A stretch of DNA of 63,266 nt from Gammaproteobacteria bacterium (lineage in GTDB: Bacteria; Pseudomonadota; Gammaproteobacteria; Steroidobacterales; Steroidobacteraceae): contig JAGWPE010000025.1 of NCBI GenBank assembly GCA_028870635.1, forward strand, positions 1 to 63,266, given 5' to 3'. A model generated the notes under the pieces. It worked only from the letters and a program-made list of their open reading frames with translations. It was not told the origin of the DNA and ran no database searches. Of this stretch, positions 21,685 through 23,814 are shown piece by piece. Numbering within the stretch: position 1 is the stretch's first letter; each line of letters opens with the position of its first letter. Both the position numbers and the translations under genes were made by a program.

Positions 21685-23814
21685 CTAGAGGTCGAGCGAA
21701 AGCTGCGGCCCTGAGCGGGGCGGGAGCGGCGGGCGGAAAAGACTGGTGTTGGGCGGCTGCTGCCTGCCGGTGCCGAGGCCGAGGCGCCGGCAGGCGATCT
21801 GGAAGCGGCTGCGCAGCAGCTCCGCGAGAGGCCCCGTGCCGCGCATTCGCGTGCCGAAGCTCGAGTCGTAATCCTTGCCACCACGCATCTGCCGCACGAG
21901 CGACATCACGTGGTCGGCGCTGGCCGGAAGGTGCGCCGCGAGCCATTCGCGAAAGAGATCCTTGACCTCGTAAGGAAGCCGCAGCAGCACGTAGCCCGCC
22001 CAGCGCGCACCCGCCGCCGCGGACGCTTCCAGAATGGCCTCCATCTCGTGGTCGGTCAGCGCCGGAATGACCGGCGCCACCAGGACCCCTGTTGGAACGC
22101 CCGCCTCGTTCAACTGCCTGACGGCTTCCAGCCTGGCACGCGGCGAAGCCGCCTGCGGCTCCATGGCACGCTTGAGACTCGGATCCAGGCTGGTGATGCT
22201 GATGCCCACTCCGGCAAGCCCGTCCCTGGCCAGATCCGAGAGCAGGTCGAGGTCGCGCAGCACGAGCGCGCCTTTGGTGATGATCGTCACGGGATGCCGG
22301 CAGCGGACCAGCACCTCCAGGATCTCGCGCGTCACCCTCATCCGCCGCTCGATCGGCTGATACGGATCCGTGTTGGCTCCGATCGTGATCGGCTTGCACA
22401 CATAGCCCGGCCTGGCGAGCTCCTCTTCCAACACCTTGCCGGCATCCTTCTTGTAGAACAACCTGGTTTCGAAATCCAAGCCTGGCGACAGGCCCATGTA
22501 GGCGTGACTCGGACGGGCATAACAGTTGTGGCTGACCACCCCGTTGGCAATGAAATCGCCCGTGCCGGTGGTGATGTCATAGAGCCGCATCGTACCCACC
22601 GGCTCGATGGATTTGACCCGCAGCGGCGCCTCGCTCTTGACCGCCCGGCCCTCGACGTTGAGCTTGCGGCTGATCGCGGGATCGAACGAGTGAAAGAACC
22701 GCAGATGCTCCCGGAGCCCTCCCAGGAGCCGAACCACCTTGATCGGCTTGGCTCGGTTGCCGGTTGGCTCCTCGATCGCGAATCGAAAGCCGAACTCCCT
22801 GAGAGAACGGGAAATCCAGTCTATGATCCGCAGATCAGTATTGCTGATTCGCAGGTTTCCACCGCTGAAGGAGCCTTCCGCGTCGAAGATTCCAGCCAAA
22901 AAGCCAGCGCACCATGAGCGCGAAGGCGTCGGAGGCCACGCGATCAAAAGATAGATGCGCTCGAAGCTCCAACGCATTCCAGTATGAATGGCTACCATCT
23001 CCCGGCGGTTCGCGCAAGCCGCCTGAAACAGGAATTCACGCGCGATGATGTCAAAGTCCAGCAAATAAGCTTGCGCACGATACAGAGCTTCACCATCGCA
23101 TAATGCGAGCCGGAAGCGATATTGCGTAGTTCGATGACCCTCTTTGTTGCAGTAATGATAAGCAGCCAGGTGAGCATCCCCCCGAACCATGCCGCAAAGA
23201 TATCCCCGCTTGTATTCGGAATCCTTGTCTACTTCTTGCGCAAACCATCCGGTTCCCATGAGCTTATTGTTTTGCGTTAGGTATGGTCTCTGCAATTCTC
23301 CGGACATGGAGCCGATGACAAACTTCCAGCCCCGTTCGGTCAAGAATCTGTGATCACCGCCAGCAACGAGCTCCGTGCCATCCTCGAGCGAAATGCGATA
23401 CGCCGGTTTGATGACACTCCATTGCGCCAATACTCGAGTCTTCACGTACCGTCTAAACATTCCCTGTCGCGCGGTCCCATAGATCTCACTACCTACAGTT
23501 ACCCTTGCGAGTTGACGAGCACTTCCATCAGCCATCAGGACAGGGGTGTCACCACGTAGGCAATAAACACACCCATGGCTGCATCCCCTGTACGGATTGA
23601 TGGATTGCTCGAACGGAATGTCAGGCGAATCGTTTCTCGCGATGACCGAGCGCGCCCGATCGGGCTCGATGGAGGTGGGGATGAAGTCAGGAACCTCCTC
23701 CTGATACCAGCCGTCGTCGACGGCCTCGCGCTGGTGGCGCTCGAAGCGGCCGGCGGGATTGGAGAGCGCGCCGCGACCTTTGAGCGGCTGGTTCCTTTCG
23801 CGCGGAGGGGCCAT
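21685..23814 (-). CDS. PA0069/Rv2578c-family radical SAM protein interrupted by an in-frame intein
   Basis: Exteins: [13 protein letters not shown] + [27 protein letters not shown]...[15 protein letters not shown]; Hint-type intein between the second and third cluster cysteines. Confidence 0.94.
   Translation of the reverse strand: [709 protein letters not shown]
22525..23562 (-). mobile_element. Intein with LAGLIDADG homing endonuclease domain (346 aa)
   Basis: N-terminal [29 protein letters not shown], block B-like [13 protein letters not shown], two LAGLIDADG-like motifs ([24 protein letters not shown]), C-terminal [21 protein letters not shown] followed by +1 Cys; locally lower GC (23221-23280 is 27/60 = 45% G+C by hand count). 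Confidence 0.94.

Follow-up and report, generated by a model that had tools for sequence, protein, structure and literature searches.

The interrupted host gene

The window, by which we mean the whole 63,266-nucleotide stretch analysed here, carries on its minus strand a gene for a 709-aa radical SAM precursor (21685..23814), whose reading frame runs open from 23814 to 21685 across an insert. In an NCBIfam profile search the protein scored 490.5 bits with NF033668 (cut-off 360), which agrees with the PA0069-type host proposed in an earlier sequence-only reading, and Pfam Radical_SAM matched the precursor at 59 bits. The flanks are an N-extein (residues 1–84; 23563..23814, minus strand), which contains the cluster cysteines Cys78 and Cys82 and ends in GCSHGCVY, and a C-extein (residues 431–709; 21685..22524, minus strand), which starts with CYARPSHAY and whose Cys431 (+1) would be the third cluster ligand of the mature enzyme. 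These limits follow from empty orthologues, in which the junction is uninterrupted: joining the flanks with the insert removed restores a continuous stretch (24 residues at its longest) whose junction is found gapless there, as in one empty orthologue (G032) over 20 residues. The exteins are under conservation (dN/dS about 0.1). Downstream of the host gene lies a Ser/Thr protein kinase gene with TPR repeats (18484–21534), which adjoins the host gene in many members of the genus.

Anatomy of the intein

The insert (22525..23562, minus strand; precursor residues 85–430) translates to exactly 346 aa, from Cys1 to a terminal SHN that is followed by Cys, and its placement precisely at the third cluster cysteine is as the sequence-only reading had described it. 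The lower GC content noted there was borne out as well, with 56.1% GC (GC3 63.6%) in the intein vs. 66.1% (GC3 81.9%) in the exteins. The final 138 nt of the intein (22525–22662), which adjoin the C-extein, have a host-like GC3 of 0.89 vs. 0.46–0.78 upstream.

A profile scan had been suggested as a check on the proposed intein with a LAGLIDADG endonuclease, and it returned LAGLIDADG_3 (PF14528, 37 bits, exceeding the gathering score) and intein_Cterm (TIGR01443, 18.7 bits vs. a cut-off of 15.6), with intein_Nterm (TIGR01445, 22.9 vs. 24.5 bits) and Pfam Intein_splicing (PF14890, 25.2 vs. 35.8 bits) both narrowly under their cut-offs. NF038136, the model of intein-containing Rv2578c radical SAM proteins, aligned along the entire intein (231 bits for the intein alone), in keeping with the suggested kinship to the Rv2578c-family intein. 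Structure prediction agreed: the AlphaFold model of the intein alone has a mean pLDDT of 94.2, and its top Foldseek matches are PI-PfuI, TliVMA, PI-SceI and I-DmoI, which share the splicing plus LAGLIDADG architecture but differ in hosts and sites and are only 10–19% identical by structural alignment. A profile built from 44 relatives likewise matched I-DmoI over residues 120–293 and PI-PfuI over residues 36–296. The identity of the insert as an intein is thus confirmed far beyond chance.

Three parts can be delimited, all on the minus strand. The N-terminal splicing region (intein residues 1–105; 23248..23562) is marked by the intein_Nterm match and by Cys1 and block B (GGDH, with His71), and the C-terminal splicing region (residues 312–346; 22525..22629) by intein_Cterm and by Asp329, His345 and Asn346. 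Among 89 distinct inteins, C1, H71, D329 and N346 are invariant and H345 is present in 88, and the +1 Cys is present in all relatives with a visible junction. The Thr position of block B (canonically TxxH) is occupied by Gly or Ser (GGDH/GSDH) in all 89 but one, which has Ala; with this family-wide departure from the usual Thr, splicing could be slow. Between the two regions lies the endonuclease domain (about residues 115–305; 22648..23220), identified by PF14528, the I-DmoI profile match and Foldseek. Its first LAGLIDADG motif (11 residues, 23167..23199) contains Asp129, found in 83 of the 89 relatives, and its second (10 residues, 22870..22899) contains Asp227 and Glu229, the latter position being Glu in 78 of 89 and Asp in 4.

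From these residues and the fold, we infer splicing of the class-1 type. Cys1 would form a thioester with the N-extein, Cys+1 would take the acyl group over, and cyclisation of Asn346 would lead to a new peptide bond joining the exteins, after which the +1 Cys would fill the third [4Fe-4S] ligand position in the mature enzyme.

The insertion site across bacteria

A scan of species genomes gave 222 candidate loci, of which the best 80 were inspected. All of these best 80 have the insertion at one and the same residue within one host family (in two of them a contig end truncates one side), and by the names of their records they span Pseudomonadota, Actinomycetota, Omnitrophota, Planctomycetota, Gemmatimonadota, Deinococcota, Rhodothermota and Myxococcota. 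Since the source is a metagenome-assembled genome, one might ask whether the insert prevents the gene from working, as a pseudogene or an assembly artefact; the in-frame recurrence at one residue in these 80 relatives, together with the extein dN/dS, makes this scarcely credible.

Of 387 genomes sampled evenly across the window's class, 2 carried the intein, the window's own included. Empty orthologous loci, 29 of them within the window's genus, align without gaps at the site in all 36 cases. Searches of phages and plasmids with tblastn recovered distant inteins in other hosts only and no close relative, and a scan of viral contigs confirmed no relative. A phage record labelled “radical SAM protein-like” (KX853510) proved to have a helicase-like host and an unrelated insertion site. 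We also considered whether the DNA at the site is more conserved than any other part of the gene; it ranks in the top 8–10% of windows only.

Full, decaying, shrunken and empty alleles in one genus

In the window's genus, 50 species were informative, 21 with the intein and 29 with an empty site. The extein clade of the window (support 99), around whose host gene the neighbouring genes are conserved, includes the full intein of the window, a mini-intein (G036) and four empty alleles (G035, G052, G032 and G055) with exteins 88–90% identical. The mini-intein (L069:2162-2635) is a 158-aa in-frame form that lacks residues about 115–300 and keeps both splicing halves; judging from its sequence, it may be a compact natural splicing element. 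The sister clade holds six inteins with degenerate endonucleases and nine empty alleles. Endonuclease dN/dS is 0.60–0.95 in the degenerate clade vs. 0.09–0.24 in intact pairs, and splicing-region dN/dS is 0.07–0.33 in both.

Such decay nearby raises the question of whether the window copy is itself a relic, with a dead endonuclease and an intein kept solely for continued splicing. The six degenerate relatives and the mini-intein lend this some weight, but the window copy, unlike those of the sister clade, retains Asp129, Asp227 and Glu229, and its endonuclease domain is ordered and resembles I-DmoI; we consider it unlikely to be a relic.

The His of the CxHxC motif, at N-extein position −5, is replaced by Asn or Thr in 8 of the 29 empty alleles (L022, L030, L033, L036, L041, L047, L048 and L061); the 21 intein-filled alleles of the genus have His in 20 cases and Ser in 1. 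Loss of this His may possibly reflect site resistance or splicing context, a comparison that is confounded by ancestry. Two bins have duplicate host-gene copies, reflecting either paralogy or contamination: G054 carries two with two different inteins (L006, L032), and G044 an intein-bearing copy and a second one cut off at a contig end (L019, L049).

Movement and origin

The sequence-only reading had taken the insert for a homing event into a proteobacterial gene, and its patchy, mobile distribution in the genus agrees with this. G054 and G027 have exteins 90% identical and inteins 63% identical, and the extein clade {G054,G044,G027}, in which the G044 extein row is incomplete, was rejected for the inteins (p-AU 1e-26). 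On these sequence comparisons, the histories of inteins and exteins conflict, and inteins have moved relative to their hosts within the genus. The close relatives of the window all come from metagenome bins, and any one instance of incongruence might therefore stem from faulty binning or a chimera. Two further candidates were not significant, namely incongruence of {G034,G040,G051} (p-AU 0.16) and a cross-phylum origin of L151 (p-AU 0.41).

The same reading had looked to the actinobacterial Rv2578c inteins and proposed a phylogeny against them. If the intein had come recently from an actinobacterial Rv2578c gene, this might explain both the full-length NF038136 match and an intein GC content unlike that of the exteins. 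However, the nearest inteins are those of other Beta- and Gammaproteobacteria (66–67% identity), and in the intein tree the sampled proteobacterial inteins, L151 excepted, fall together on one side (support 95/90). The case for a recent donor among actinobacteria is therefore unsupported, and we regard such a donor as very improbable.

We conclude that the window most probably (about 93%) carries a mobile intein of class-1 type with a nested and probably active two-motif LAGLIDADG endonuclease, at a homing site of long standing within the PA0069/Rv2578c radical SAM gene. Its anatomy, site, phylogeny, allele series and selection patterns are established directly. DNA cleavage, as judged from the residues and fold of the domain, would be directed at the CXXY|CYARP codons of empty alleles, with the intein spreading by gene conversion. 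On this reading, the site in the genus cycles between intact inteins, inteins whose endonuclease has decayed, mini-inteins and empty alleles.

Precursor cysteines and a possible redox link

The sequence-only reading had also held cluster assembly to be strictly dependent on splicing. That Cys+1 takes the third ligand position after splicing stands, but the precursor sequence keeps C78-X3-C82-X2-C85, with Cys1 of the intein in the third place; because Cys1 thus completes CX3CX2C before splicing, the local motif is unbroken and strict dependence is overstated, the sequence leaving room for cluster binding by the precursor. In the AlphaFold model of the precursor, in which cluster and disulfide chemistry lie outside the modelling, the intein is well ordered and the motif loop (77–82) has pLDDT <50, a weak hint that the loop may not be formed before splicing.

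Cys82 occupies position −3 relative to Cys1, and wherever the N-junction of an intein-bearing relative is visible, Cys(−3) is present. In the MoaA precursor of P. abyssi, a Cys(−3)/Cys1 disulfide is reported to block splicing, according to review passages on Callahan et al. 2011 (PMC10663303, PMC3922620). As the Cys82/Cys1 pair matches that of MoaA in these accounts, redox-sensitive splicing of the window protein is plausible by analogy. It is tempting to go further and see a gated switch, in which Cys1 would form a disulfide with Cys(−3), coordinate a nascent cluster together with Cys78 and Cys82, or be available to start splicing, so that mature enzyme would arise only under reducing conditions. 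The presence of the pair in all these relatives, the MoaA parallel and the contrast between disordered loop and ordered intein would fit such a switch. Yet the host enzyme itself requires Cys(−3) as its second cluster ligand, so its conservation is no evidence of selected regulation, and 29 of the 50 informative species of the genus live without the intein. We therefore view the switch as a tentative alternative, with odds against it, to a mobile homing intein.

A bolder and rather doubtful proposal is that Cys1 serves as a provisional third [4Fe-4S] ligand in the precursor, so that one thiol would be contested by the cluster, by a disulfide to Cys(−3) and by splicing. If true, the intein would provide a radical SAM enzyme with its own internal check on redox and iron-sulfur state, and would do so in many bacterial phyla.

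Relation to known inteins and significance

The closest described type is that of NF038136, mainly actinobacterial, whose intein is homologous and sits at the homologous residue, and which is matched by all 42 members of A3. The window protein differs in scoring 502 bits against a cut-off of 700, its host belonging to the PA0069 family instead, and the proteobacterial intein forms a separate clade. The P. abyssi MoaA intein, as presented in the same reviews (PMC10663303, PMC3922620), also has a radical SAM host and Cys(−3) plus Cys1 in the CX3CX2C region, but the host family is another, the disulfide trap is reported for MoaA, and the likeness drawn here is one of host type and cysteine geometry. 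A related intein (28.5%, E 1e-19) lies in a DUF5131 protein on the Streptomyces sp. P9-2B-2 plasmid NZ_CP129127.1 (L072:2839-4674), similarly placed just before the CYA cysteine of a Cys motif (DNC...HNCYAL), though in a different host family and at a locus for which the plasmid table lists no CDS.

No paper linking inteins with PA0069 or Rv2578c was found among the open-licence papers searched. The intein type itself is already covered by NCBIfam, in its model of Rv2578c proteins, and MoaA provides a known radical SAM intein with this arrangement of cysteines. The new elements are the proteobacterial PA0069 lineage, a site that is identical in many phyla and a series of alleles within one genus. 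The window intein is a real new lineage of a widespread and already annotated intein type.

Broadly, an intein placed at an iron-sulfur cysteine is a candidate for splicing under redox control, as reported for MoaA, and the PA0069/Rv2578c inteins offer the Cys(−3)/Cys1 geometry of MoaA in bacteria of many phyla. Because one genus has the complete homing cycle, with full, decaying, mini and empty alleles at one orthologous locus, its closely related species allow homing, decay and any effect of the intein on the enzyme to be compared. The genus makes a good natural test case, as its species show the site invaded, in decay, shrunken and empty alongside one another.
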